Below are positions 46,401-60,866 of a stretch of 64,000 bases of DNA, one piece after another. Within the stretch, counting starts at the first letter, position 1; every line of letters begins with the position of its first letter. The notes under the pieces were generated by a model, which was not told the origin of the DNA, did not search any database, and saw nothing but the letters and a program-made list of their open reading frames with translations. The stretch is from Emticicia sp. 21SJ11W-3 (GTDB taxonomy: Bacteria > Bacteroidota > Bacteroidia > Cytophagales > Spirosomataceae). Location: the NCBI RefSeq assembly GCF_024138715.1, contig NZ_CP092074.1, positions 4,898,001-4,962,000 on the forward strand, given 5' to 3'. The position numbers were made by a program, and so were the translations under genes.

Positions 46401-47735
46401 TCAATATTTAAATGGTTTGCCGCCGGCTAATACTTCCTGCGTTTTCTCGTCGAAAGTAACTTTCAAACCAGTACGGTATGCCGCGTTCGACATGATAGTA
46501 GCAATTGAGTGCGAATAACCTGCTTCAATTGGGGCATGAGGGGTTTTACGGCTGCGTACACACTCCATCCAGTTTTTAATGTGCGCAAATGTAAGTGAGT
46601 CTCCACCTGTGTTGGCGCCAGCTTCAACCTTTGTGCCTTCAAGCTTAACTGTTGGTAAAAGATTAGCTTTTAAGCCCATTGCAGATGCTTCACGCTCGCG
46701 AAGCCCTCCGGTTGGAGTAATTTCGTTGGTATCAAGGTTAATCATACCACCGTTAGAGTAGTATAATTCTTTGGTATCACCGGCTGAATTTGAGAAACGA
46801 GAAGTAAACTGCACCTGGAAGCCAGATGATTTATCGTTCAATGGGCCGTAATCAAACACTACGGTAAGTGTATCGGCGTTGGTTCTGCCGTCTTTCCATT
46901 GGTAGATACCTCCGTTGGCAACTACCGAACGAGGATGCGGCAAGCCAGAGAACCAGTGTACGGTATCAATCTGGTGGCTCATCCATTGCCCCGGAATACC
47001 AGAAGAATAAGGCCAGAATAAACGATACTCAAGATATTTACGAGGGTCAAACGGAACCATCGGACGGTTCATCAGATAACGTTTCCAGTCAACGTCAGAC
47101 TCTTTCAAATCTTTAGTCAATTCAGCTCTTCTCCAACGGCCGGGTTGGTTTACGTTCCACATCAGTTCAACCATTACAATCGGGCCAAACTTGCCAGATT
47201 TGATGAAGTCTTCTGCTGCAAAATAGTTTTCACCACTACGGCGTTGCGAGCCAATCTGTACTATTTTACCTGAGGCTTTCACGGCTTTCAATACGGCGCG
47301 GTTGTCTTCCATGGTTTCGGCCAATGGTTTCTCGGTATAGGTGTCGCAACCTGCTTTTACGGCCTCAATGGTATGTAAAGCGTGCTGGAAATCAGCAGTA
47401 GAGATAAACACCGCGTCTACCATTTTAGAAGCATAAAGCTCATCATTGTTACGGAAAACTTTTACGTCGCTTCCCAATTGCTTATCTAAATAGGCTTTTC
47501 CTTCTTCACGGCGGCGGTTCCAGATGTCTGAAAGGGCAACCATTTCAAAATTCATCTGTTTTTGTAAAGCTTTGAACGGGCCAACATGAGAAGAACGGTG
47601 GCGGTCAGAGAACCCCACACAAGCTACGCGTACGCGGTCGTTTGCTCCTATGATTTTGCCATAACTCTTTGCCGAAAAACCAGTGGCTGCTGTAGCCAGA
47701 ACTGATTTAATAATAAAATCTCTGCGGGTTGTCAT
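46401..47735 (-). CDS. Tat-exported Gfo/Idh/MocA oxidoreductase
   Basis: The 444-residue oxidoreductase begins with a twin-arginine signal (TTRRDFIIKSVLATAATGF) and so is probably folded in the cytoplasm and exported to the periplasm. The NAD-binding start is VACVGFSDRHRSSHVG, and the conserved TEKPLAETMEDN segment lies at about residue 135. The C-terminal domain has ARGxx-like SGIPGQWMSHQIDTVHW with the catalytic-type His. In Bacteroidota such enzymes oxidise sugar C3 positions or reduce keto-sugars. It heads the 3' end of a sugar cluster with GH3, DUF1080 and a sugar isomerase. Confidence 0.9.
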   Translation of the reverse strand: MTTRRDFIIKSVLATAATGFSAKSYGKIIGANDRVRVACVGFSDRHRSSHVGPFKALQKQMNFEMVALSDIWNRRREEGKAYLDKQLGSDVKVFRNNDELYASKMVDAVFISTADFQHALHTIEAVKAGCDTYTEKPLAETMEDNRAVLKAVKASGKIVQIGSQRRSGENYFAAEDFIKSGKFGPIVMVELMWNVNQPGRWRRAELTKDLKESDVDWKRYLMNRPMVPFDPRKYLEYRLFWPYSSGIPGQWMSHQIDTVHWFSGLPHPRSVVANGGIYQWKDGRTNADTLTVVFDYGPLNDKSSGFQVQFTSRFSNSAGDTKELYYSNGGMINLDTNEITPTGGLREREASAMGLKANLLPTVKLEGTKVEAGANTGGDSLTFAHIKNWMECVRSRKTPHAPIEAGYSHSIATIMSNAAYRTGLKVTFDEKTQEVLAGGKPFKY

Positions 47736-47802
47736 AGTTTTATTTGGATTGAATAATACTTACTTTAACTTTTATTAAAATATGGTGAAATACTTCCGAT
47801 AG

Positions 47803-49839
47803 TTATTTTCTATTAGGTTTATTGTAATTAAGCCCGTCGCCAAATTTAAACAGGGCATAATTGGGCTCCATGAATCCCGGAACATCTGATTTGTTTTCAT
47901 CTGCTGCTTTCTGAGAAACAGGCGTTGAAAAGGGCATTTTACCCACAGGACCAAACACGCCACTAATGACATCTAAAAGGGCATCTTGTGTGGTTCCAAA
48001 AGTGGCCAGAATTGTTTTTGCATTTCCTTTATCAATCTCATCAATTACCCAGGGATTGGTATAATTAATAACCACAATGGTTGGTTTGGCATTGATAAGC
48101 GCATTTACATGGGCCACATTGATTTTGTTTTTTGATAAACTCAAATCTATTGGTTTGCCTTGAGAGCTAAACAATCCCCCACCGGTAGGAATCAGCCATA
48201 CCAGGTTAACATCTGCGTCGTCCTTGTTTGTTACAAACTCAATGTTCCATTTATTATCCTTAGGAACACTTACAGAAACAGGATTGGGCGCCTGCGTATT
48301 AGGGGCGCCTCCCCTTTCATAGTACGTTTCAAAATAGACTTTTTTCTTTTGTGTTAACGGCAGCAATTGGGCATCGTTTCTCAATAAAACAATTGATTTT
48401 CTGAAAGCAATATCCGCCTTTTTCTGAAATTCTGCATTGCCGACAGTTTTTACTGCTACATCCACATCAACAAAAGGATTTTCGAACAAGCCCAATTCAA
48501 ACTTTTCTTTCAGGAGCCTTGTAATAGATTCGTTTATTCTGGCTTCAGAAACCAATCCCTGCTTAACAGTTTCCAGTAAAAGAGCCGGGTCTGCACCACC
48601 AGAGAACAAATCTACACCTGCATCTAATGCCTTTTGGTAACGCTGCACAATTGTCAGGCTTTCGACGCCCCAGGGCATCATATCAATAGGGCCTGTGTCA
48701 GAATTGATGATACCATTAAAGCCTAGTTTTTTACGCAATAAATCCTGAATTACTGCTTTATTGTATGAGAAACCCACCTCTTCCATATTTTTATCTTTCG
48801 GAGCCGAATAATAAGGCATGATAGATGAGGTACCCGCTTTAATGGCAGCTATAAAAGGCTTTACATGATAATCGAACATACCTCCAGGATAATGCGCATA
48901 TTTGCCCCAGTCAAAATGGGAATCCTGCCCACCTACCTGCGGACCACCCCCGGGGAAGTGCTTCGTAGTCATTGCCACCGAATTCCTGTTTAACTTCGGT
49001 CCTTGAAAACCCAGTACAATTTCACGAATCATATTGGAAGCTAAATCGGCATCTTCGCCAAAGGTACCTTCAATGCGTTGCCATCGGGGCTCGGTTGCCA
49101 AATCGGCCATATACATATAGCCTTTTCTTAATCCTACCGACGACCACTCTTTTGCTGCTATTTCAGCAAATTCACGTGTCAACTTCAGGTCTCTCATGGC
49201 TGCCATGCCTAGTTCGCCGGGCCATCTTGAAAAAACTGTTGTTCCTACGCTCAAACCAATGGCCGCATCAACGGTGATATGATTTCGCGGATTTGAAGCA
49301 ACGATTGCCGGAATACCAAGACGCGAACTTTCGCACAAAGCCTGCAGATTGTTAGACCATTCGGCTAAAATCTTTGCATTGGTATTAGCTCTCAGAATAA
49401 AATGACGCAGGTTATATACCATTACCCCTTTTGTTGTACCCGCTGCCGACATCATAGGTACGGGCAATGGTTTGCGGGTAAACATATTAATGGGCTGCAT
49501 CAGGTCTTCTTCATTAAAGCCTGAGGAAATTTCGCCTCTCGGCGCATTGGCCTGAAACGAATTATCTCCTGCCAGCCGGGTAGTGCTGATTAGCATAAAG
49601 CCAATCTTCTCCTCAAGCGTCATTTGAGCCAAAAGGTCTTTTACTCTAACATCAACAGGTAGCCGCCAGTCTTCATATTTATCTAGCTTGTTATTCTTGT
49701 TGAGGTCTTTAAACTCAAGATTACCTTCTTTCAGAATTTTAACCGAACGGTAGCCCAGATTGGCCTGTTTAACCTTTTGGGCGAAGGAGTCAGCTCCTGC
49801 GCCCATAAACATCAGAATAATTAAGTATGTTAATCTCAT
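47803..49839 (-). CDS. Exported GH3 glycoside hydrolase with EF-hand-like segment
   Basis: The 678-residue protein has a signal peptide (ending ADSFAQ), then residues ~40-60 with DLNKNNKLDKYEDW, an EF-hand/dockerin-type calcium loop, and a GH3 N-terminal barrel (DLLAQMTLEEKIGFML, TKHFPGGGPQVGGQDSHFDWG) with the nucleophile Asp in NSDTGPIDMMPWGVE. The C-terminal GH3_C domain runs from about 460 (FRKSIVLLRND) with VVINYTNPWVIDE; no fibronectin tail is present. It is likely a beta-glycosidase on a plant or microbial glycan. It is cotranscribed with the neighbouring DUF1080 gene. Confidence 0.88.
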   Translation of the reverse strand: MRLTYLIILMFMGAGADSFAQKVKQANLGYRSVKILKEGNLEFKDLNKNNKLDKYEDWRLPVDVRVKDLLAQMTLEEKIGFMLISTTRLAGDNSFQANAPRGEISSGFNEEDLMQPINMFTRKPLPVPMMSAAGTTKGVMVYNLRHFILRANTNAKILAEWSNNLQALCESSRLGIPAIVASNPRNHITVDAAIGLSVGTTVFSRWPGELGMAAMRDLKLTREFAEIAAKEWSSVGLRKGYMYMADLATEPRWQRIEGTFGEDADLASNMIREIVLGFQGPKLNRNSVAMTTKHFPGGGPQVGGQDSHFDWGKYAHYPGGMFDYHVKPFIAAIKAGTSSIMPYYSAPKDKNMEEVGFSYNKAVIQDLLRKKLGFNGIINSDTGPIDMMPWGVESLTIVQRYQKALDAGVDLFSGGADPALLLETVKQGLVSEARINESITRLLKEKFELGLFENPFVDVDVAVKTVGNAEFQKKADIAFRKSIVLLRNDAQLLPLTQKKKVYFETYYERGGAPNTQAPNPVSVSVPKDNKWNIEFVTNKDDADVNLVWLIPTGGGLFSSQGKPIDLSLSKNKINVAHVNALINAKPTIVVINYTNPWVIDEIDKGNAKTILATFGTTQDALLDVISGVFGPVGKMPFSTPVSQKAADENKSDVPGFMEPNYALFKFGDGLNYNKPNRK

Positions 49840-49855
49840 GTTTTTATTCAGGTTA

Positions 49856-51205
49856 TTATTTTAATTCTCTAATCTTCAGATTCTTAAACGACACATTATT
49901 GCCGTGGTCCTGCAACAGAATGTTGCCTTTATCACCTGCTCCAAAGTTATTATACTTGGCATATTTACTTCGGGCTACTAAAGCATTGTAAATATTACTT
50001 TTTCTTTCGTACTCCAATACTTTGAAGCCATTCAGCCAGTGCTGAACAATGTTGTTAGGGTACACCACCAGGCGTGCCTGATTCCAGTCGCCGATTTTAC
50101 GTTGGAAACGTCTGTCTAACTTATAAGATGGTATCAAATCATACAAACTTGCCAATGTGCGGTTGCCTACTACACCCATTTTGGCATCCGGGTGGCGCTC
50201 ATCATCTAATACCTGATACTCAAGGCCAATGCCCGATTTACCGCCTGAATCAAAGGCTTCATTTACAAAGTATTTCAAGCCGGAGTTTGCCCCTTCTGTC
50301 AGTTTAAACTCAAAGGTCAGTTCAAAGGCGCCAAACTGTTCGTCTGTTACAATATCATTGCCGGTTTCTGAGCCGTCAGATGGGCTTACGTTAATGGTGC
50401 CATCTATTACGGCCCAATGCTTATCGGGCATTTTGGTTTGGTGTACCCCTCTCCAACCGGTAAAGTCTTTGCCGTTGAAAAGCAACTTGAAGCCCTGGGC
50501 TTTTTCTTGCGGCGACAGGTTATTCAACAACAGATTTACTACCGGTGTATTGTCTGTCGGGCTGGGTTTCAGGTTTTCAGTCTGGATTCTGATATTTCTC
50601 CAGCGAATCTGCTTGCCCGGTTTATCATCCTTGCCAATAGCATGTACTTGCAGCGCGATAAAGCCTTTAGGGGTTAGGTCGTCTACCAGATAAGCCACAG
50701 GCACACCATTTACCCAGGTACGAATAATGTTTCCGATAGCCTCTATGCGGTATTTGTTCCACTCGCCTTTTTTAAATGCTTTTTTGCTTTCAGGGTTTGC
50801 ATTGGGGATGTAGAGCCAGTCGCGGCGGGCTTCGTCGTATATACCACCAGACCATGCACGGTCTGAAGGGTCAACTTCCATCTGATAGCCATGCACACGG
50901 CCATCTTTGTAGTCGGGTTTTGATAAACTACGGAACTGTATACCCGAGTTCATAGAGTTATCTACCTTCAATTCTAATTCCAGAATGAAATCGCCGTAGT
51001 CTTGCTCGGTTGCCAGAAAAGAATTGGGGGTGTCTGCCACCGTAGTACCAACAATTTCGCCGTTTTCTATGGTATATCTGGCCTTGCCATTGAGTTGTTT
51101 CCAGCCCTTCAGATCTTTGCCGTTAAACAGGCTTGTCCATTTCTGTGCAGTTGCTGAAAACAGAAACGAATGCACAAGTAAGAATCCAATAATTACTTTT
51201 TTCAT
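49856..51205 (-). CDS. Exported protein with two DUF1080 (3-keto-disaccharide-hydrolase-like) domains
   Basis: The 449-residue protein has a signal peptide (IIGFLLVHSFLFSATAQ) and two tandem DUF1080 domains: ~22-212 (WTSLFNGKDLKGWKQLNG, NSGIQFRSLSK, HGYQMEVDPSD) and ~235-445 (FKLLFNGKDFTGWRGVHQ, NSGLKYFVNEAFD, GLEYQVLDDE). Some members of the family cleave 3-keto-glycosides. Together with the Gfo/Idh/MocA gene and the isomerase on either side, it supports a keto-sugar route. The reason for two domains (two active sites or binding plus catalysis) is unknown. The GH3 gene follows 16 bp downstream. Confidence 0.87.
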   Translation of the reverse strand: MKKVIIGFLLVHSFLFSATAQKWTSLFNGKDLKGWKQLNGKARYTIENGEIVGTTVADTPNSFLATEQDYGDFILELELKVDNSMNSGIQFRSLSKPDYKDGRVHGYQMEVDPSDRAWSGGIYDEARRDWLYIPNANPESKKAFKKGEWNKYRIEAIGNIIRTWVNGVPVAYLVDDLTPKGFIALQVHAIGKDDKPGKQIRWRNIRIQTENLKPSPTDNTPVVNLLLNNLSPQEKAQGFKLLFNGKDFTGWRGVHQTKMPDKHWAVIDGTINVSPSDGSETGNDIVTDEQFGAFELTFEFKLTEGANSGLKYFVNEAFDSGGKSGIGLEYQVLDDERHPDAKMGVVGNRTLASLYDLIPSYKLDRRFQRKIGDWNQARLVVYPNNIVQHWLNGFKVLEYERKSNIYNALVARSKYAKYNNFGAGDKGNILLQDHGNNVSFKNLKIRELK

Positions 51206-51319
51206 TTAATAAAATAGAGTTGAATAATTTCTATCAAAATTAAGTGCTAAGTATCAATCTGTCTAATATCTATTTAGCGAAAAATTCATAAAATTTGACA
51301 AACATTCAACCTTTATAGG

Positions 51320-52204
51320 TCAAAATTTCACATTTATTGTCTCCAGATACTTTTTGCTGGTTTGCCCGCTTTCTAAAGCAGTGCGACCTTTCACAGGTAC
51401 AGAGTCTAATTCAATTATATTCCAGCCTTTAAATTTAATCTTCTCTAAGGCTTTAAAGATAGCCGGAAAATCAACACGCCCCTGCCCTAATTCTACAAAT
51501 TGGTAGCCCGATTTGCTCTCTACAGGTTTAGTGTCTTTTATGTGTGTGGCATGCAAAATGTGTTTATATTTAATTACAGCCTCGGCTGGGTTTCCGCCTC
51601 CTTGTGTATAATGAGCTACATCCAGTTCCAGCTTAATATATTTAGTGTCCATTTTTGTAGCTATAATTTCTACTTCTTCGGGTGTTTCGCCCAATTGGTT
51701 CATGTGGTTATGCCAGGCTGGCTGTACGCCTGTTTCCTGCAATACCACTTTGGCTACCTCCGACATATTTTTGGCATATTTATTCAATTCTTCAGTTGTG
51801 GGTACTCTGTCTTTCGGACGAGAATTGTTGGTTATCTGTAGCGATTTCCCGCCTAATGCCTTTACAAACCGGGCATGGTTAAGATGGGTCTCTATATCTT
51901 TCGAAATATCATCCTGTATTCCCACATTTCCGCTTGAGAACATGGCCAGTGTCAGGCCATTCTGGTCTAACAGGTCTTTAAGGTCTTGGGGTTTGTCTTT
52001 AAACGGGGCGTAGCTGTTGGCTCTCAGTTGTATACCCTTAAAACCTAAAGCGGCAATATCTTTGATAGCTACGAGGTCGTTGCCGTTCCAGGTAATAGCT
52101 GAATAGGCCATTTTATGTTTGCCTTTGGCTGCCAGGCTGTCAAATGAAATAAGTGAAGATGTTGTGAGTAATGATGCCTGAGTCAGGAAATCTCTACGGT
52201 TCAT
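51320..52204 (-). CDS. Sugar phosphate isomerase/epimerase-like TIM-barrel protein
   Basis: The 294-residue protein begins with a short signal-like stretch containing MNRRDFLTQASLLTTSSLIS, consistent with Tat export. The AP-endonuclease-2/xylose-isomerase-type barrel shows ITWNGNDLVAIKDIAALGFKG near the start, KSLQITNNSRPKDR, PAWHNHMNQLGE (metal His), YIKLELDVAHYTQGGGNP and ILHATHIKDTKP with typical metal ligands. These proteins isomerise or epimerise sugars or keto-sugars. It is the most upstream gene of the minus-strand sugar cluster. Confidence 0.87.
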   Translation of the reverse strand: MNRRDFLTQASLLTTSSLISFDSLAAKGKHKMAYSAITWNGNDLVAIKDIAALGFKGIQLRANSYAPFKDKPQDLKDLLDQNGLTLAMFSSGNVGIQDDISKDIETHLNHARFVKALGGKSLQITNNSRPKDRVPTTEELNKYAKNMSEVAKVVLQETGVQPAWHNHMNQLGETPEEVEIIATKMDTKYIKLELDVAHYTQGGGNPAEAVIKYKHILHATHIKDTKPVESKSGYQFVELGQGRVDFPAIFKALEKIKFKGWNIIELDSVPVKGRTALESGQTSKKYLETINVKF

Positions 52205-52524
52205 GGTTTATAGGGTTAAATATGTAAAACTTTAATTTATAAAAATAGCAATAAAAAGTCAATCAGGAACCTATCGGCCACCATAATTTTGCAACTGCTT
52301 TATAATGTATGGGATTCAGATACCACAAAATCACTTAAAAGAACAAAGTCGCCACATTTGTTTATGCGTGGTTATGCGCATAAAAATAAAAAAAGGCCCC
52401 CTATGCTTCGGCAAAAGCTCAGGGTGCCTTTAGATAAAACCGATTCTACTCATAGCTTACTTGTCTGAACCATGACAAGCCGGGTACCGCCAAGCAAAAC
52501 AGGGTTTTAGATTTATGAGCATTA
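52205..52524. other. Intergenic region (320 bp)
   Basis: There is a terminator at 52392-52431; the rest holds no credible ORF and no clear promoter for the isomerase gene. A 21-codon ORF near the end of the peptide gene is not supported. Confidence 0.45.
52381..52431 (-). terminator. Probable intrinsic terminator after the GG-leader peptide gene
   Basis: AAAGGC...CCCT...GCTT pairs imperfectly with AAGC...AGGG...GCCTTT (52392-52431), and the minus-strand transcript continues into TTTTTTTATTTTTA. It lies about 95 bp past the peptide gene. Confidence 0.5.
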
Positions 52525-52806
52525 TCAGTGATAGCCCGGTGTGCCACAAGGAGCCCAGTCGTAGTATTCGGTATAGTAGGTAGAGCCGGTAGCTGGGTCG
52601 GTATAGCTTTTAGTTGTTATTTTTGTGCAGCCACCGCCTGGGTGCCCGGGGTTAGCCGGTGTGGGAGGCGTTGACGACCCGCCAGAACAATCGTGGCAAC
52701 CATAGGTAATGGCATTGTAATCTTCCCACCAGTCTCCACCAACTACACCTTTCATTTGCTCTTTTGAAAGCAAATTGTCTGCAAATTTTAACATCAATTT
52801 TTTCAT
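52525..52806 (-). CDS. Candidate RiPP/bacteriocin precursor with double-glycine leader
   Basis: The ATG at 52806 gives 93 residues; an upstream ATG (52854) adds a non-leader-like extension. Residues 1-24 look like a double-glycine leader: helical and basic at the start (MKKLMLKF) and ending LLSKEQMKGVVGG. The 69-residue remainder begins DWWEDYN, has Cys at core positions 13, 16, 36 and 63, and is rich in Gly, Pro, Ser, Thr and Tyr, with a Pro/Gly/Ser-rich centre and an aromatic tail (STYYTEYYDWAPCGTPGYH). Such a layout fits a secreted, disulfide-bonded and possibly modified peptide. It is the last gene of a run with a glycosyltransferase and a VKOR fusion upstream. Confidence 0.75.
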   Translation of the reverse strand: MKKLMLKFADNLLSKEQMKGVVGGDWWEDYNAITYGCHDCSGGSSTPPTPANPGHPGGGCTKITTKSYTDPATGSTYYTEYYDWAPCGTPGYH

Positions 52807-52842
52807 TTTTGTACTGTTTAAACGGTTGAAAATTAATTTATG

Positions 52843-52853
52843 TGATCTGATCA
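52843..52853. promoter_or_regulatory. Short dyad upstream of the peptide gene
   Basis: TGATC-T-GATCA (52843-52853) lies ~37 bp before the preferred start codon of the peptide gene. It might be an operator, but it is short enough to arise by chance. Confidence 0.25.
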
Positions 52854-52906
52854 AATCCTTTAAAAAAGAAACTTACTTAAACACAGCCGGGCCACTGCTC
52901 AGATGC

Positions 52907-54199
52907 TTAACTGAAAATATCAACCTCTACATCTGTAGAACTTATGATGGGTTTATACTTCATTTCAAATACTTTTTTGAGTTTCAGCTCAATTACCGGC
53001 ATGGTATCTTTTGATATATTGCCTGCTAAGCCCAGGCCTTTAGCTTGCACACGGGCGCCATTGCCGGGCTGGTCCATTTTTTTGTCTAACGGATACACCA
53101 ACATTGGCACACCCGACTGAACACACTCTTTAATGCTGCCCATTCCTCCATGGGTTATCATGGCATCGGCATATTTTAAAAAATCCAGCTGCGGCACAAA
53201 AGGCAATATTTTTACATTTTCAAGTGCTGGCGGACTAGTTCTGATACCTACCAGAGAAATCATGAAAAACCATTGCGGGTACTTTTGGGCTATCATGAAT
53301 AAACTGTTTAAAAATGTTGCAATGCGTTTAATCTCACTTTGCCCGATGGTGCCGAATGAAACATAAATTACTCTGGTACTGCTCTGTTTTTTTAAATCAA
53401 TAACCTGCTGGCGTAATGCCATATAGTGGTCTGAAATAGCCATTGATTCTTCTCTTTTAACCGGCAGATTTACGTAGTATTCATTACTGAAAGTGCGTTT
53501 GTGCGCAAATTCTAAATGCTGAAGACCCAGTATCACTCTTGGAATTTCGCTGACACTGTTAAACAGGCCGTTCTTTTTATCTATTAATTTCAGGGTGCCC
53601 GTTTCTCTGGCCCAGTTGTATAAAAACCTGTTCCGGTCTTTTCTCAGGTATGCTGCTGCTTTTATAAACGCCTGTGCTCTTCTTCTGAACAAGTGGCTGG
53701 CCCACAACAATTCACAATACCATCTTGAAAACACAGACCCGGATGGTATAAACGATGAGTTCAGCGGAGGAATACCGGCCGACTTCTGAGTAGATAGTTT
53801 TGTGTTGAGTATGGCAATATTTGGGGTAACCGGCGACAGGTAAAAATAAAGATACGTAAGATGGGCATCAATAAATGTAGCATAAGGCTGATACTTTTCT
53901 ATAAAGCTTAATGCTGATTTTATACTTGATTGCCAGGCATTAAAGCGAATTTCTGCATTTTCTTTAGAGAAGATTGACGTCAGTAAAATTCCAGCAAAGC
54001 CTCTGACTGTTTTAACCGGATGTTCTACAGAATAGCTTATTTCCTGAAACTGAAAGCCCTGCTTTTGAACCAGGTCTTTCTGGGGCGCCAATCCGGCGTA
54101 AACCACATTATATCCCTTGTTTTGCCAGGCTTGCGCATAACTAAAGGTGTTGGTATAATGGCTGGGATACGGCAACATTATAAAAACTACGTTTCTCAT
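52907..54199 (-). CDS. Family 1 (UGT/MGT-type) glycosyltransferase
   Basis: The 430-residue protein starts VVFIMLPYPSHYTNTFSYAQA, the glycine/His acceptor region of GT1 enzymes, and has the C-terminal donor-binding block THGGMGSIKECVQSGVPMLV followed by YPLDKKMDQPGNGARV. No signal peptide or membrane helix is evident, so it acts in the cytoplasm with a nucleotide sugar. GT1 enzymes glycosylate small molecules (macrolides, flavonoids, lipids), and only some peptides. Placed between the VKOR fusion and the GG-leader peptide gene, the peptide core is a plausible acceptor; this is inferred from position. Confidence 0.88.
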   Translation of the reverse strand: MRNVVFIMLPYPSHYTNTFSYAQAWQNKGYNVVYAGLAPQKDLVQKQGFQFQEISYSVEHPVKTVRGFAGILLTSIFSKENAEIRFNAWQSSIKSALSFIEKYQPYATFIDAHLTYLYFYLSPVTPNIAILNTKLSTQKSAGIPPLNSSFIPSGSVFSRWYCELLWASHLFRRRAQAFIKAAAYLRKDRNRFLYNWARETGTLKLIDKKNGLFNSVSEIPRVILGLQHLEFAHKRTFSNEYYVNLPVKREESMAISDHYMALRQQVIDLKKQSSTRVIYVSFGTIGQSEIKRIATFLNSLFMIAQKYPQWFFMISLVGIRTSPPALENVKILPFVPQLDFLKYADAMITHGGMGSIKECVQSGVPMLVYPLDKKMDQPGNGARVQAKGLGLAGNISKDTMPVIELKLKKVFEMKYKPIISSTDVEVDIFS

Positions 54200-54255
54200 T
54201 CAGTCACAACATTAAGTCTAAAAAATAAAGTATTGAAATCTACCGCTGTCGCGTG

Positions 54256-55869
54256 CTAGGCAGATTTATTTTGCATTTGTGCAGTCAAAAGTTTCAGATC
54301 TTTCAGGCTATACATTTCAGGCACCAGGTAGTTATCAAAAAAAAGCGTTGGTGTTGTTTTTATCCGGTTTATTTCGCACCAGACATTTTGTCTTTCCAGA
54401 TACATACGTGCCTTTTCAGTTTTTGATGCTGATAGAGACCGTCCGAAGTCAACGGGGTCGGTATTATCTTTTTCATACCAACTTTTAATAGCTTCCATTT
54501 GCCCGTTAGGCGGTAAGTGCAAAACATAAAGCGCTAAATGCTGTTGTTCGGGGCTTTGAAAAGAGGTTAAAAATATAATCCTGAAATTAACGTCTGCTGA
54601 GCTGCGAGCTATTTTTTCTAACTCAAGAAACTTACTACTGCAGGCTTTGCAGAAAAGATTTGCTACAAGCGTAACCGTATGTCCGGCATCCGGATTGCCC
54701 AAATGAATGGCTCCGATATCTTCCGGCAATTCTGCTATTCTGGGTTGCTGGTAAAGTAAAACCCTGAAAACTTCAGAGTTTCTTTTAAAAATATTTAATT
54801 CAGCTGCCGATTTACCGCCGCGCGTAGCATTTACTAATATAGGCTTAACAACTAACCATACAAGCAAAACAGACCCAAAACCAGAAAAAATGGCCGACAA
54901 CCCTTTTACACTTACATGAATTACTGCCTGGTGGTTCATTGATAAAACCAGCAGAAACTCTATGATAAGCAAAGCCTGGGTAATCAGGCAAAGAGTACAC
55001 CACTGCCTGATGACCCGCCATTGGGTATAGATTGACCAGAAGGTAAAAGGTAAGGCTACTACGGTGAGCATCTGGAGATATGGTAAACTTTCTGCAATAT
55101 GCTTTGCAATGGCTATTGTAAAAAGCCCCCCTGCAAAATATAGCAGGCCGACCTCAGACCAGGTGAAAACCCTGAGGATTCTGGCAGATGGAGAAAAAAT
55201 AACCGAGGCGCAATCTGACTTTTGGCTAATATGGCAAATTTTATTCAGAAACGCACTTACCTTTCCATATTGATTAATGACTAGCAAAACACTTACGAAT
55301 GTTCCTGCTGTTTTAGTAAAGGTGTATGCATAAAAAAGCCAGGGCAGACTACCTTCAAAGCTGGCAATGCCTGTTACCAGTACCAAAAGCGCAAGAATAA
55401 CTATGGTAGGTATACGTAAGGTATTAAGTAAAGACACCCGGCGTTTTAATCTGTAATCTTTTTCGCCTGAATTCTCATCAGGCTCGGCAATCAGCACATA
55501 GCCAGACCAGACTTTGTAAAACTCTTCAGGTGTCTGGTTATAAAATCCCTTGGCCGGGTTGTAAAGAGATATAGTATTACTATTCTGCGAAATAACCAGA
55601 ACAAAATACCCGTTATTGACGGTGGTGTGCGCAATAAACGGATTTTCTATTTCAGCCAATTGCTGCCTGCTTAGCCTGAAAACGCCATTTTCAACATTAA
55701 ATTCGCTAAGGGCATCGCTTAAACTTCCGATTCCGGGATACCCCGGATGGCTCCTTAGTGTTTCGGTCAGGGTAGCATTTGTCACAGAAACATTTATCAC
55801 TCTTAGCAATTCAGACAGTACTGCAATTGTATTGTCTTGGGAGGTACCAAACATTGGTCTCTTAATCAC
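54256..55869 (-). CDS. Membrane VKOR-thioredoxin fusion with degenerate C39-peptidase-like domain
   Basis: The 537-residue protein has three parts. Residues ~1-130 resemble a C39 peptidase, but the Cys-site segment reads QDNTIAV (Asn13 at the Cys position), the His position is Tyr88 (GYFVLV) and the Asp position is Asn104 (YNPAKG), so it is catalytically dead. Residues ~148-350 form a VKOR domain with four or five helices, loop cysteines Cys212 and Cys220 and the CTLC active site (291-294). Residues ~365-535 are thioredoxin/DsbA-like with Cys407-Lys-Ala-Cys410 and cis-Pro in TTPT. It would make disulfides with quinone as acceptor. It heads a three-gene run with a GT and a peptide gene. Confidence 0.85.
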   Translation of the reverse strand: MIKRPMFGTSQDNTIAVLSELLRVINVSVTNATLTETLRSHPGYPGIGSLSDALSEFNVENGVFRLSRQQLAEIENPFIAHTTVNNGYFVLVISQNSNTISLYNPAKGFYNQTPEEFYKVWSGYVLIAEPDENSGEKDYRLKRRVSLLNTLRIPTIVILALLVLVTGIASFEGSLPWLFYAYTFTKTAGTFVSVLLVINQYGKVSAFLNKICHISQKSDCASVIFSPSARILRVFTWSEVGLLYFAGGLFTIAIAKHIAESLPYLQMLTVVALPFTFWSIYTQWRVIRQWCTLCLITQALLIIEFLLVLSMNHQAVIHVSVKGLSAIFSGFGSVLLVWLVVKPILVNATRGGKSAAELNIFKRNSEVFRVLLYQQPRIAELPEDIGAIHLGNPDAGHTVTLVANLFCKACSSKFLELEKIARSSADVNFRIIFLTSFQSPEQQHLALYVLHLPPNGQMEAIKSWYEKDNTDPVDFGRSLSASKTEKARMYLERQNVWCEINRIKTTPTLFFDNYLVPEMYSLKDLKLLTAQMQNKSA

Positions 55870-55920
55870 GGCAAAAATTTAGTGAATTATAAAAAAGTAC
55901 AGTTTACAATTGGATATGTA

Positions 55921-55928
55921 CAAATATA
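55921..55928 (-). promoter_or_regulatory. Probable -7 box for the VKOR-glycosyltransferase-peptide operon
   Basis: Read on the minus strand TATATTTG matches TAnnTTTG, 52 bp before the VKOR start codon. No good -33 TTTG was found at the expected distance. Confidence 0.4.
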
Positions 55929-55955
55929 ACAATTGTTGATGTATAATTTTAAGAA

Positions 55956-55991
55956 GTTACAGGTTTTATTTTGCAGGATAAAACCTGTAAC
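55956..55991. repeat. 13-bp perfect hairpin upstream of the VKOR gene
   Basis: GTTACAGGTTTTA (55956-55968) and TAAAACCTGTAAC (55979-55991) pair perfectly with a 10-nt loop. It lies just upstream of the -7 box of the VKOR gene and 20 bp beyond the SusD terminator stem, so it may be a second terminator or an operator-like element. Confidence 0.5.
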
Positions 55992-56011
55992 ACGTGTCTT
56001 AAAATTTAAAT

Positions 56012-56039
56012 AAAAAGCTCTCCAACAGAAGAGCTTTTT
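56012..56039 (-). terminator. Intrinsic terminator of the SusC/SusD operon
   Basis: AAAAAGCTCT (56012-56021) and AGAGCTTTTT (56030-56039) pair perfectly around an 8-nt loop, followed on the minus strand by T-rich sequence. It is 30 bp beyond the susD stop. Confidence 0.8.
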
Positions 56040-56068
56040 GATATTCTACTATGATGAAACAAAACTAA

Positions 56069-57766
56069 TTAATATCCAGGGTTTTGCGCAAAAGCCCCTT
56101 TGGTTGACCTGTCAATCTGGGTCTGAGGAATTGGGCGCAAATAATGTTTGTCTGCCACGTTTGGAGCAGCCTGAGGGTTATATTTTTTCACTCTGTCTAC
56201 CAATAATCCCCAACGTTTCAGGTCTAGCCAGCGCATTTGCTCTCCGGCCAGTTCTCTTGCTCTTTCCTCTATAATCAATTCAAAGTTCATTTGGGCGTCG
56301 GTAATCAACATGGCGTCTTTTTTGCCCGGCCATCCGGCTCTGTAACGCACCGCATTCATTGCTTTGGTGGCTTCTGATATATTGCCAGACTGCAACTGAG
56401 CCTCGGCCAGCATCAGGTACACATCAGCCAGACGGAATACGAAGAAATCGCGGCTACCTGCTTCATAAGTCAAATCAGGGCGTTTGGTATCAAAGAATTT
56501 CATCAGAGTCGGAAACAAGGCTTCGTTATAAGCGCTCGGTACCAACACCTGGTATTTCTTCTTGGCGCGGTCTGCCTTACTCATTTCATAGCCCGGGATA
56601 AAGATGGCGGTGTCGCCGGCGGCAAATGTCAACTTTGTTTTTGAGTCGTCAAAAGAGGCATTCAGGTTAGTACCCGGGTTATTGCTCAACCAGGTATCTC
56701 TGAAAGTCTTCTTATAACGAGAATCATTGGTTCTGTCTGCAAAAACGGTATTTAAGAAATACGAAGTTGGACGGAGACGCTTGAACGGACGGCCGTAGAA
56801 AACGTCACGTTTCATACCCGGTTGTACGTCATACTGCATACCAAACAAAAGGTGCAGGTTATTACCGCCATTTACGGCACCGGTGTTGTTGGTAAGGTTT
56901 GTCAATGGGTCTGATGTGTACTGCACTGCAAATACAACTTCAGAGTTAACCTGGTTGTTTTCGTCATGTACCTGAGCAAAATCATCCAACAATTTAAAGG
57001 TGTAATTGTTAATAACACCGCTACACAACTGTGCTGCTTTGGTGAAATCATCGGCAGCCCTCTGGGCTGAGTAAGCCTTAACCAGATATACTTTAGCCAG
57101 AAGCGTTTCAGCGGCAGGCTTAGTGGCACGGCCGTAGTCGGTTGACTGCGACTTTGCTTCAAGATTAGGTATTGCCTCGGTTAGGTCTTTGATAATGGCA
57201 TTAAACATTTCTGCATCCGTAGCTCTTTTGGTATCCTTAGTTGGCACAAGGGTTTCTGTGAGGCGTAAATCTACCCCACCAAATTGCTGATGCAACAAAT
57301 AGTAGTAGTGGGCTCTCAGAAATTTTGCTTCTGCCACCCTTTGCTTAAGAACGGCCTCCGAAAGCGTAACTTTGGGTGCTCTTTCTATAATGGCATTACA
57401 AATGTTAACTCCTCTGTATAGCTCGTCCCAAAGTGCCGCAAGCAAGTCGCCGGATGCCGAGCCTACCCCACCCTGCAACTGGGTATCATAAAAATGGAAA
57501 CCCTTAAAGCTACCATCAGCGCCGGTGGCATAGATATCAGTACCGTATTCGGTAATGGTAAGGCCGGGTTGTGTACCATAGTAGTTTCTCAATGAAGAAT
57601 AAGCAGATTTAACAGCATCTTCAAAGCCTTTGGGGGTATTCATATAGTCGTTACCAATACCAGAAACTACCTTTTCAACCAGTAAATCTTCACAAGACTG
57701 AGAGGCAAGCATTACAGACATCATGCCTAATATCTTGATTGGTTTTAATATATTTCTTAATTTCAT
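56069..57766 (-). CDS. SusD/RagB-family surface nutrient-binding lipoprotein
   Basis: The 565-residue lipoprotein has a signal with lipobox (SVMLASQSCEDLL) and SusD-type helical TPR organisation: FEDAVKSAYSSLRNYYGT, AKFLRAHYYYLLHQQFGGVDL, YGRATKPAAETLLAKVYLVKAY and the C-terminal RERAREL-type ERARELAGEQMRWLDLKRWGL. It captures a glycan or other ligand at the cell surface and hands it to the SusC partner upstream (40 bp gap). The ligand cannot be read from sequence; no glycoside hydrolase is directly attached, although a GH3 cluster lies 6 kb away. Confidence 0.93.
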   Translation of the reverse strand: MKLRNILKPIKILGMMSVMLASQSCEDLLVEKVVSGIGNDYMNTPKGFEDAVKSAYSSLRNYYGTQPGLTITEYGTDIYATGADGSFKGFHFYDTQLQGGVGSASGDLLAALWDELYRGVNICNAIIERAPKVTLSEAVLKQRVAEAKFLRAHYYYLLHQQFGGVDLRLTETLVPTKDTKRATDAEMFNAIIKDLTEAIPNLEAKSQSTDYGRATKPAAETLLAKVYLVKAYSAQRAADDFTKAAQLCSGVINNYTFKLLDDFAQVHDENNQVNSEVVFAVQYTSDPLTNLTNNTGAVNGGNNLHLLFGMQYDVQPGMKRDVFYGRPFKRLRPTSYFLNTVFADRTNDSRYKKTFRDTWLSNNPGTNLNASFDDSKTKLTFAAGDTAIFIPGYEMSKADRAKKKYQVLVPSAYNEALFPTLMKFFDTKRPDLTYEAGSRDFFVFRLADVYLMLAEAQLQSGNISEATKAMNAVRYRAGWPGKKDAMLITDAQMNFELIIEERARELAGEQMRWLDLKRWGLLVDRVKKYNPQAAPNVADKHYLRPIPQTQIDRSTKGAFAQNPGY

Positions 57767-57806
57767 TTTATTTAAATTTTAAAATTCCTGAATAATTGTT
57801 TTCGAC

Positions 57807-60800
57807 TTAGAATCTGACATTCAGACCAAAAGTTGTAACCATAGTGGCAGGTGTAACACCAGAGCCCACATTAGTAGTACCGTTACCAGATGATGTAATG
57901 GTGGCTTCAGGATCTATGCCATTATATTTGGTACGGTATTTTGACCAGATTTTAGGTTGCTGAATACTTGAGAATAATCTAAGTGACTCCATACCCAGTT
58001 TTTTGGCAATTTTAGGTGAAAAAGTATATCCGAAATTAATATTTCTTAGTTTCACGAAGGTGCCATCAAAGTAAATAAGGGTGGTGTTATTAACCGGGAA
58101 CTCTTGTGTGCTCTTTGGTCTCGGAAATTCATTGGTAGGGTTGTTGGGTGTCCAATAATCTACTTTAATTTGCTGGTAGCGACCTGCCAATGCGTTGTTA
58201 TTCTGATGGAAACCACTCACAATCATATTGCCAAAACGACCAAACAAGAAGGCCGACAAGTCAAAACCTTTAAATTCGAAACGAGTAGTGAACCCGGCAC
58301 TGAAATCTGGAATATCAGAACCCAAAAGCACGCGGTCGTCAGCATTGATTTTACCATCATTATTGGTATCCTGTACTTTTATTTGGCCAACCTCGCTGCC
58401 ATAAGATTTGGCAAGGCTTTCTTCACTGGTTTGCCAGATGCCTATTTTTTTCAGGTCAAAGTATGAATTCAGTGGCTGGCCAATAAACCAGCGGTTGCCG
58501 AGGTCATCTACTTTTCCGTTATAAAGAGATACGATTTCCTCCTTGTTTTTGGTAAACGTAAAGTCGGTAGACCACTTAAATCCGTTTGAAGAGTTGATGT
58601 TTATGGTAGTGAAACCCAGCTCAATACCTTTGTTACGTGTATGGCCTACGTTTCTTGTTACTGCACTAAAGGCTATTGAGCCTGGTAGCTGGTCAGACAA
58701 TAACAAATCGGTAGTGTTGGTTTCATATAATTCTAATGACCCTTGTACTCTGCCACGAAGCAAGCTGAAATCCAAGCCGATATTGGCTGTAGATGATGAC
58801 TCCCATTTCAAATCAGGGTTACCAATTGTGTTAGGTCTATACCCAAAGGCTGCCACAGTACCCCAGGCGTATGCCGTTCTTGACAACAAGCCCTGTGTCT
58901 GATATGGTGCTACCCCCTGGTTACCCACCACACCCCAACCTACTCTCAACTTCAGTAAGTCTAACCAGGTAATCTGTTTCATGAATGGCTCGTTGCTTAT
59001 GTTCCAGCCAAGAGCAACTCCAGGGAAATTACCATATTTGGTATTGGCACCAAAACGGCTTGAACCGTCTCGGCGTAAAGTAGCTGTCAATAAATATTTA
59101 TCATTGAAGTCATAATTTACACGAGCCATATATGAGTTAATAGTCCATTGTGTTAAATTACTACCTACCCCCAAAACAGAACTGGCATTACCTAAATTAT
59201 AAAACTGTTGCGTTTCGGCCGGTACGCCTTGCACTTCTGTTCGGTACGTCTGAAAATCGTCTTTCTGAATTGAGTGAACCAATGTTATACCAACATTGTG
59301 CTTGGCTTTATAGGTTTTGTTGTAGCTCAGAATGTTCTCGAGTGTCCAGTTGAAACCAATGTTATTTTGCGTTGTTGCCTGAGGGTCTCCCATTTTACGG
59401 GCATTGGTGGCAGCGCCGATAAATCTACCCCATCTTGAGATTGTGAAGTCGGGGCCGAAGTTTACACGATACTTTAAGCCCTCAATAATTTTAACTTCTG
59501 CATAAAGGCTGTTGAACAGGCGGTATTTCCTGGTTTGATCTATTTGTGCGCCGGGTACAATTTCAGCCAGGGGGTTGGTTAACAAGGCATCGTTGGTTGG
59601 CGAGAAAATGATATTCCCTTTATCATCATAAGGTGAAGCCAAGGGGTTCTGCTGAATTGTGAACGAGTAAGGGTTCAAGTTTTCACCATTTCTGATGCTA
59701 TACATGGTGTAAGATGAAATACCTACTTTCAGGCGGTCGTTAATGCTATGGTCAAGATTTACCCGCAGAGACATACGGGTGTAATCAAGCCCGTCTGAAA
59801 TTCCTTTATCCTGAAAATAACCTCCTGAAATGAAAAACTGGGTTCTTTCACTTCCACCCTGTATACCTATCGAGTGATTTTGCATAACACCGTTGTGCAG
59901 AATCAAATCCTGCCAGTCTGTATTGGTTCCGTTAGCAATACCTTTGGCCACGGCCGGGTCACCCCCAAGAACTGCAACTTTGGCATCTGCGGCGGCGTCG
60001 CCCACACCGGTTGGTACAGGGTTGCCGTTAGCATCTTTATACAGGTTAGTGGCACGATACGCCTCACGGACATATTCAAGAAACTCAGGGCCACTAAACA
60101 GCTTAATCTTGTCTAAAGGGGTAGATACGCCGCCGTAAGTATCAAAACTTACAGTGGTTTTTCCTTTTACTGCGCCTCTTTTGGTAGTAACCAATACCAC
60201 CCCGTTGGCGCCACGCGCCCCGTAAATGGCGGTAGCAGTAGCGTCTTTCAGTACTTCCATAGACTGAACATCGCTAGGGTTCAGGTCTTCATAGCCGGCA
60301 GAAAGCGGAATACCATCTACTACATAAAGAGGGTCGTTACCGGCATTGAACGAACGACGGCCACGGATAAGGATTTTTGGCACTGAGCCTGGTTTAGAGC
60401 CAGACTGCGAAACATCAACCCCTGCCACACGGCCCTGCATGGCCTGGCCTAAGCTGGTGATGGGCATTTCCTGAATCTGCTTGGCACTTACCTGCGAGAT
60501 AGCGCCCGTGGTCTGGCTTTTTTTCTGAGAACCATAACCAACCACAATTACTTCGCTCAAGGCCGCGGCATCTTCTTCTAAAGTAACATTTAATGTGGTT
60601 TTGCCACTTACATTGATTTCTAATGCTTTGTAACCAATGTAGCTAAATACCAGAACGGCATTGTTAGCAGCCTGCACCGTAAACTTACCATCAGAATCAG
60701 TAATTGAACCTTGCGTAGTACCTTTTACTGTAACACTAACACCCGGGAGGGCCATACCGCCTGCATCAGATACTTTTCCTGACACACTCCGGCCTTGGGC

Positions 60801-60866
60801 ATGTACATACTGTATGCTAAGGCATATAGTAAATACCAGCAACATTTTTTGTAGTAATTGTTTCAT
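57807..60866 (-). CDS. SusC/RagA-family TonB-linked outer membrane transporter
   Basis: The 1019-residue receptor has a signal peptide (LVFTICLSIQYVHAQ), a carboxypeptidase-like domain (~25-105, VSGKVSDAGGMALPGVSVTV), the SusC-type TonB box region EVIVVGYGSQKKSQTTGAIS, a plug with YVVDGIPLSAGYEDLNPSD and GARGANGVVLVTTKRG, and a 22-strand barrel ending in FGLNVRF. It forms a complex with the SusD protein encoded next and imports an oligosaccharide or similar nutrient. A -7 box TAGTTTTG (60938-60945, minus) lies 72 bp upstream. The AraC regulator at 61133 is divergently placed and may control it. Confidence 0.95.
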   Translation of the reverse strand: MKQLLQKMLLVFTICLSIQYVHAQGRSVSGKVSDAGGMALPGVSVTVKGTTQGSITDSDGKFTVQAANNAVLVFSYIGYKALEINVSGKTTLNVTLEEDAAALSEVIVVGYGSQKKSQTTGAISQVSAKQIQEMPITSLGQAMQGRVAGVDVSQSGSKPGSVPKILIRGRRSFNAGNDPLYVVDGIPLSAGYEDLNPSDVQSMEVLKDATATAIYGARGANGVVLVTTKRGAVKGKTTVSFDTYGGVSTPLDKIKLFSGPEFLEYVREAYRATNLYKDANGNPVPTGVGDAAADAKVAVLGGDPAVAKGIANGTNTDWQDLILHNGVMQNHSIGIQGGSERTQFFISGGYFQDKGISDGLDYTRMSLRVNLDHSINDRLKVGISSYTMYSIRNGENLNPYSFTIQQNPLASPYDDKGNIIFSPTNDALLTNPLAEIVPGAQIDQTRKYRLFNSLYAEVKIIEGLKYRVNFGPDFTISRWGRFIGAATNARKMGDPQATTQNNIGFNWTLENILSYNKTYKAKHNVGITLVHSIQKDDFQTYRTEVQGVPAETQQFYNLGNASSVLGVGSNLTQWTINSYMARVNYDFNDKYLLTATLRRDGSSRFGANTKYGNFPGVALGWNISNEPFMKQITWLDLLKLRVGWGVVGNQGVAPYQTQGLLSRTAYAWGTVAAFGYRPNTIGNPDLKWESSSTANIGLDFSLLRGRVQGSLELYETNTTDLLLSDQLPGSIAFSAVTRNVGHTRNKGIELGFTTININSSNGFKWSTDFTFTKNKEEIVSLYNGKVDDLGNRWFIGQPLNSYFDLKKIGIWQTSEESLAKSYGSEVGQIKVQDTNNDGKINADDRVLLGSDIPDFSAGFTTRFEFKGFDLSAFLFGRFGNMIVSGFHQNNNALAGRYQQIKVDYWTPNNPTNEFPRPKSTQEFPVNNTTLIYFDGTFVKLRNINFGYTFSPKIAKKLGMESLRLFSSIQQPKIWSKYRTKYNGIDPEATITSSGNGTTNVGSGVTPATMVTTFGLNVRF

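Follow-up and report, generated by a model that had tools for sequence, protein, structure and literature searches.

Glycocins are in outline among the described systems closest to the three-gene system analyzed here, which lies on the minus strand of a 64,000-nucleotide stretch (the window; positions 4,898,001 to 4,962,000 of contig NZ_CP092074.1) of the 5.18-Mb, single-contig genome of Emticicia sp. 21SJ11W-3. The trio encodes a membrane fusion protein with vitamin K epoxide reductase (VKOR) and thioredoxin domains, a glycosyltransferase (GT), and a Cys-containing peptide with a double-glycine (GG) leader. The GT of glycocins is a SunS-type GT2, and sublancin carries an extra, S-glycosylated Cys. 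Bacterial fusions of a VKOR domain with four conserved Cys and a following CxxC thioredoxin domain are also known, to which the protein described here adds an inactive C39 domain at the N terminus. As presented in the accessible text of PMC12457901, the glycocins sublancin, glycocin F, and Thg share with our trio a GG-leader peptide, a GT, and thiol-disulfide oxidoreductases, and with the clusters of its relatives also a C39 exporter; the ThgA peptide has seven Cys. The bacteroidetocins (class IIf) share the host phylum, Bacteroidota, a four-Cys GG-leader peptide, a thiol oxidoreductase, and a peptidase-containing ABC transporter (PCAT), and differ in having a leader of 15 amino acids (aa), against 24 in the window, and separate genes for a five-transmembrane protein and the oxidoreductase (available text of PMC6671954). 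This set (peptide, five-transmembrane protein, thiol oxidoreductase, and PCAT) is incomplete in our locus, where no such transmembrane protein or PCAT stands beside the trio. The accessible text of PMC10352776 reports glycosyltransferases in two Bacteroidales clusters and contains no word beginning with thioredoxin, epoxide, or disulfide. Searches of the open-access literature, which covers few subscription journals or preprints, returned nothing joining VKOR, bacteriocin, and glycosyltransferase, nor vitamin K epoxide reductase, peptidase C39, and thioredoxin.

The first-pass annotation of this DNA had proposed the trio as a peptide system. The coordinates, strand, and order of the genes were re-checked in the window, and Pfam matches and a leader scan against shuffled sequences (below) bear out the three products:

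54256 to 55869, minus strand: pseudo-C39/VKOR/thioredoxin (BdbD/ScsC-like) membrane fusion, a putative leader-docking, disulfide-forming enzyme (Pfam, conserved Cys, AlphaFold2 model).
52907 to 54199, minus strand: GT1-type (GT-B) glycosyltransferase (Pfam and NCBIfam, PDB matches, conserved residues).
52525 to 52806, minus strand: precursor peptide of 93 aa (sequence; leader resembling TIGR04149, below cut-off).

These genes are part of a real, recurrent system in Bacteroidota that is larger than the trio. The arrangement had been suggested to be a separate class; it does differ from glycocins, but is better placed as one branch, marked by GT1, within a wider pseudo-C39/VKOR peptide system, and the copy in the window is reduced and has been inserted. 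We lean slightly toward the view that the trio yields a peptide that is secreted, carries disulfides, and probably bears a sugar; it would be glycocin-like, with the sugar probably on a residue other than Cys.

The peptide gene had been read as a 109-aa open reading frame starting at a TTG codon. Its GG leader and four Cys stand, but the TTG was set aside in favor of the likelier ATG at 52806, because the leaders of relatives start alike. The resulting 93-aa protein consists of a 24-aa leader ending in GG (MKKLMLKFADNLLSKEQMKGVVGG) and a 69-aa core with the four Cys. The leader matched TIGR04149 with 19.2 bits (E = 8.3e-4), under the cut-off of 25. This family, NF047798 (bacteriocin-like protein), and NF047792 (CCPGW putative bacteriocin) have a similar GG-ending leader on small proteins, but every match of the scanned peptides to them was under the cut-off, including those of two relatives' leaders to NF047798. 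A scan for the leader followed by Cys returned the window peptide as the sole match in the 64 kb and 30 real matches in 40 loci (617 kb), against none in shuffled sequences; it gave no match in 16 loci with GT1 only (234 kb) and one, apparently by chance, in 10 carbohydrate-locus controls (99 kb). Matches were denser near the fusion genes (1.17 per 10 kb) than farther away (0.22). The window leader has 17 of its 24 positions in common with peptides at two other fusion loci (L094 and L081) that have dissimilar cores, and among the relatives in general the cores are highly variable while the leaders keep a shared pattern.

The fusion protein matched Peptidase_C39 (E = 2.2e-15), VKOR (E = 1.5e-14), and Thioredoxin_4 (E = 5.1e-5) of Pfam; its start codon is GTG, with an in-frame ATG at 55854 as a possible alternative. 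It has the apparent features of a VKOR enzyme, i.e., a VKOR domain with CxxC, a loop Cys pair, and a thioredoxin partner, and the redox Cys (C212, C220, C291, C294, C407, and C410) are shared by 32 or 33 of the 33 aligned full-length relatives. The columns of the C39 triad hold Asn, Tyr, and Asn in the window protein, which thus has no catalytic Cys-His-Asp. Among 145 fusions, 95 have Asn and one has Cys in the Cys column, and two have His in the His column. Since the full triad (C, H, D) is found in none of these 145 proteins and in all 107 PCATs, the N-terminal domain probably serves as a pseudo-peptidase for docking leaders; a role in leader binding best accounts for such a dead domain joined to an oxidase. 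Substrate binding by inactive C39-like domains is known from other exporters, such as HlyB. In the AlphaFold2 model (mean predicted local distance difference test [pLDDT], 81.4; predicted template modeling score [pTM], 0.49), the predicted domains resemble the peptidase domains of PCAT1 and ComA, as well as BdbD/ScsC; the pTM makes their relative placement unsure.

A single-protein scan of genome contigs returned no relative, but an alignment-based scan did. Among 118 related genomes, the fusion was present in 30 and GT1 in 28, and by coordinates 21 of the 41 GT1 places in these genomes adjoined a fusion gene; in a sample of the phylum, 41 of 395 genomes matched. A scan of named genomes gave 415 loci with relatives, of which the 79 best were kept; these include Pedobacter, Mucilaginibacter, Runella, Sediminibacterium, and Hymenobacter, and one metagenome-assembled genome (MAG) labeled Endomicrobiellum (L256), so that the family may reach beyond Bacteroidota. 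GT1 occurred among these 79 loci in Runella, Arcicella, Fibrella, Telluribacter, Emticicia, Hymenobacter, Xanthocytophaga, and one Cytophagia MAG, and was not seen in the stretches inspected for Pedobacter, Mucilaginibacter, and Chitinophagaceae.

Neighborhoods were counted for 147 distinct fusion genes, a set that excludes frames shorter than 450 aa, copies sharing an identical 100-aa block, and L144, which overlaps L070; some loci carry two. A GG peptide matching the leader expression was nearby in 106 and lacking in 41, a PCAT was nearby in 95, GT1 in 24, and any GT or putative GT in 49. These are lower bounds, since 25 genes have less than 4 kb of downstream and 16 less than 2.6 kb of upstream sequence. 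An earlier count with a shorter distance limit gave HlyD at 88 and TlpA-like genes at 68. Four other loci bear GT1 outside the 24, one with GT1 just past the limit (L083) and three with split fusion frames (L094, L099, and L101). The proposed link of peptide and fusion is upheld, and the first-pass annotation was right that a GG-leader peptide system including a glycosyltransferase recurs while its cores vary. One outcome that it had named as refuting was nonetheless observed for the GT: peptide homologs regularly occur without it, and GT1, not being found at 123 of 147 fusion genes, is an accessory and not an obligatory part. In one common arrangement the genes run from an XRE regulator through fusion, GT1, peptide, and a TlpA-like gene to PCAT and HlyD; in another the order is GT1, fusion, peptide, and onward. 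The XRE-type regulators that adjoin many related clusters would suit a signal peptide instead of an antimicrobial, which we consider very improbable, as the highly variable Cys-rich cores, sometimes several per genome, better fit weapons.

The window GT matched UDPGT (E = 9.6e-13) and the macrolide-GT subfamily TIGR01426 (E = 1.7e-19, far under its cut-off), and its PDB matches are mostly macrolide GTs, YjiC-type enzymes, and UDP-glucuronosyltransferases. Residues H14, D111, H350, E358, and D376, which have recognized roles in GT1 enzymes, are conserved in all 25 full-length VKOR-adjacent GT1s, consistent with an active enzyme. The NCBIfam matches listed for this GT and for six other GT or putative GT proteins of the clusters included none of SunS type. 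The trio thus shares with glycocins the GG-leader Cys peptide and a thiol-disulfide oxidoreductase, and departs from them, as had been anticipated for the Firmicutes glycocins, in the GT family (GT1/UDPGT, GT-B) and in a single membrane fusion with a pseudo-C39 domain, as well as in its Bacteroidota host. On the features tested in these sequences, it is glycocin-like in outline and not a member of the glycocin family.

A tree was made of 38 GT1s, and the 25 among them that are VKOR-adjacent fall into two separate parts. The first lineage (15 proteins) is exclusive and its gene lies upstream of the fusion; the second (10, including that of the window) lies downstream of the fusion and includes four VKOR-free rows as well. 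A minimum of three changes of label (VKOR adjacent or not) is required, and the fusion tree, made by a quick method, likewise shows turnover of GT1. We examined 16 of the 20 GT1 places without an adjoining fusion gene. Among the 13 distinct full-length GT1s that are free of a fusion, 6 adjoin PCATs with an intact triad: 2 (L111 and L120) have a grasp-with-spasm ATP-grasp protein, that of L111 just below the cut-off, and 4 (L116, L117, L118, and L121) a bacteroidetocin-like set, as judged solely from gene content and size. By coordinates, PCAT genes also lie close to the GT1 genes of L113 and L114, which are outside the tree. GT1 relatives are thus also found in other peptide clusters.

Other GT families recur in the clusters, namely, GT2, GT32, GT25, and PLOD-type enzymes, and two putative families, the candidate DUF6625 and DUF6734. 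Their frequencies are partly circular because the detection profiles were built from these same clusters. An additional GT or putative GT family was present at 11 of 24 fusion genes with GT1 and at 25 of 123 without it (Fisher test ignoring relatedness; P = 0.017). The recurrence of two GT1 lineages, of GT1s in other GG-peptide clusters, and of several unrelated GT families would be most simply explained by the peptide being their shared substrate.

Distinct cores near fusions that have two or more Cys numbered 162, and in 155 of them (28 of 30 with GT1 and 127 of 132 without it) the number of Cys was even, which sets them apart from the glycocins; in a looser count of 165 cores, 154 were even, 9 odd, and 2 Cys-free. 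This suggests that all core Cys are paired and therefore that the sugar, if present, is probably on a residue other than Cys. S-glycosylation of an unpaired Cys was accordingly set aside. The motif [YW]CCxx(x)C was enriched in cores with GT1 (9 of 30, against 5 of 132 without GT1, with no correction for relatedness).

The lack of an active peptidase or exporter nearby had been taken as a mark of a new class. This is true of the window locus, which has no C39 ABC exporter, but was rejected as a trait of the class, since 95 of the 147 related fusion genes have one nearby and the genome of the window itself encodes one whose triad is intact. Five C39 matches were found in this genome: two fusions, two ABC exporters, and one 158-aa frame. 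One exporter, with intact C, H, and D motifs, lies at about 4,774,347 to 4,776,572, beside HlyD and some 174 kb from the trio; the other sits in a grasp-with-spasm-type cluster. The former belongs to a sister cluster (L070/L144; about 4.774 to 4.793 Mb) with its own fusion, GT1, GT2, two GG peptides, PCAT, and HlyD. This cluster also has several TlpA-like genes and two short fusion fragments.

The following scheme would link these parts. GT1 may first put a sugar on the core in the cytoplasm, probably on a side chain other than that of Cys. The precursor would be held at the membrane through its GG leader, bound by the inactive C39 domain of the fusion, and a C39 ABC exporter acting in trans, probably the one about 174 kb away, would cleave after GG and export the core. 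Its Cys would then be oxidized to disulfides by the VKOR and thioredoxin domains, which are predicted to sit on the inner membrane and face outward. The likely role is bacteriocin-type competition. Deletion of the thiol oxidoreductase gene attenuates the activity of bacteroidetocins, and general disulfide machinery is missing in Bacteroides (available text of PMC6671954); by analogy, the deletion result comes closest to experimental support for the proposed oxidase role. More tentatively, and at slightly under even chances, this could be a widespread Bacteroidota system in which a dead C39 domain on VKOR-thioredoxin docks GG leaders and hands peptides to oxidation and export, while interchangeable GTs (two GT1 lineages, GT2, GT32, DUF6734, and others) decorate non-Cys residues, making a glycosylated disulfide class that evolved separately from glycocins.

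Besides the accessory standing of GT1, several points weigh against a glycosylated product. Enzymes like this GT1 mostly use small-molecule substrates. Seven of the 13 VKOR-free GT1s (L108, L109, L110, L112, L115, L119, and L122) have no adjoining intact PCAT. No core motif is common to all peptides with GT1, and [YW]CCxx(x)C is missing from the window core. PCAT-HlyD export straight through both membranes would bypass periplasmic oxidation, and the window copy, having no regulator, TlpA, PCAT, or HlyD, could be a remnant. The product might instead be a plain disulfide bacteriocin (class II, like bacteroidetocins or the NCBIfam bacteriocin-like proteins), GT1 acting on a surface glycan, a lipid, or a small molecule, perhaps in self-protection. 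The frequent lack of GT1, the PDB relatives of the enzyme, and the resemblance of two leaders to NF047798 favor this, as do the bacteroidetocin regions, which consist of peptide, thiol oxidoreductase, and PCAT and for which the main text of PMC6671954 has no word beginning with glycosyl-. We nevertheless regard it as rather unlikely, given that two GT1 lineages adjoin fusion and peptide, that GT1s of the same family stand in other GG-peptide clusters, and that several unrelated GT families occur in the same clusters.

Three further features were recorded in the setting of the trio:

56012 to 56039, minus strand: terminator-like hairpin between susD and the trio (12-bp stem and T-run; weak).
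52385 to 52445, minus strand: terminator-like hairpin 3' of the peptide gene (-21.4 kcal/mol, z = -2.68, followed by a T-run).
52245 to 56047, no strand: inserted segment with the trio, within the susC-susD-isomerase-DUF1080-GH3 locus (comparison with 10 other genomes of the genus).

The trio breaks into a minus-strand locus of susC-, susD-, sugar isomerase-, DUF1080-, GH3-, and Gfo/Idh-like genes, of which the isomerase was assigned by AP_endonuc_2 (Pfam) and the others were named by the look of the sequence, without a family search. This carbohydrate-use locus spans window positions 46401 to 60866 and is free of the trio in the 10 other genomes that were searched. In all of them, susC, susD, isomerase, and DUF1080 homologs are present, and the gap between susD and the isomerase is only 113 to 816 bases. 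DNA similarity to the genus ends at 56047/56048 and restarts at 52204 to 52244, depending on the genome. The short gaps and the breaks in similarity show that about 3.8 kb carrying the trio was inserted in this lineage; the absence of the trio elsewhere rests on the susD-isomerase distances, the matches listed being those above 40% identity. The GC content of the insert (0.40 to 0.41 per kb) is inside the range of the window, so that composition gives no mark of foreign origin. A terminator-like hairpin flanks the trio on each side. The upstream one is weak, as seven such sites were found in the region against 4.3 expected, and a clipped piece of it folded no better than shuffles (z = -0.58); the downstream one was not listed by a simple terminator scan of the region. 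Rfam gave no structured RNA at gathering scores between 45000 and 62000. No regulator, TlpA, PCAT or other exporter, or HlyD stands beside the trio, and no radical SAM gene was among its identified neighbors. A fragment of a larger peptide cluster, moved here and no longer making its product, would account for the insertion and for this reduced content, unlike that of many relatives. We hold it to be quite unlikely, because the three frames are intact with their key residues kept, a hairpin follows the peptide gene, and an exporter is available in trans.

Two observations concern other members of the clusters. DUF6734 (PF20508) lies near fusion genes at eight loci (L071, L073, L090, L095, L096, L106, L207, and L258) and has an invariant HxDxD in nine aligned members. 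Its predicted structure (pTM, 0.67; mean pLDDT, 72) most closely resembles glycogenin and further enzymes of the GT-A type (target TM up to 0.60; E about 3e-5), and it is probably an unrecognized glycosyltransferase family. At L100 (7708 to 16600), fusion and GT1 stand beside a DUF4135 protein, which we take to be of the LanM-dehydratase type, and five similar proteins of 116 to 133 aa, some with GG motifs, which may presumably be nitrile-hydratase-type leaders.

Should glycosylation be confirmed, the system would be a Gram-negative counterpart of glycocins in which another kind of enzyme adds the sugar, and it would offer disulfide peptides of great diversity. It also points to DUF6734 as a family that probably consists of glycosyltransferases, and the pseudo-C39/VKOR fusion makes it possible to test, as a general matter, how peptides with a double-glycine leader reach an oxidase dedicated to them.

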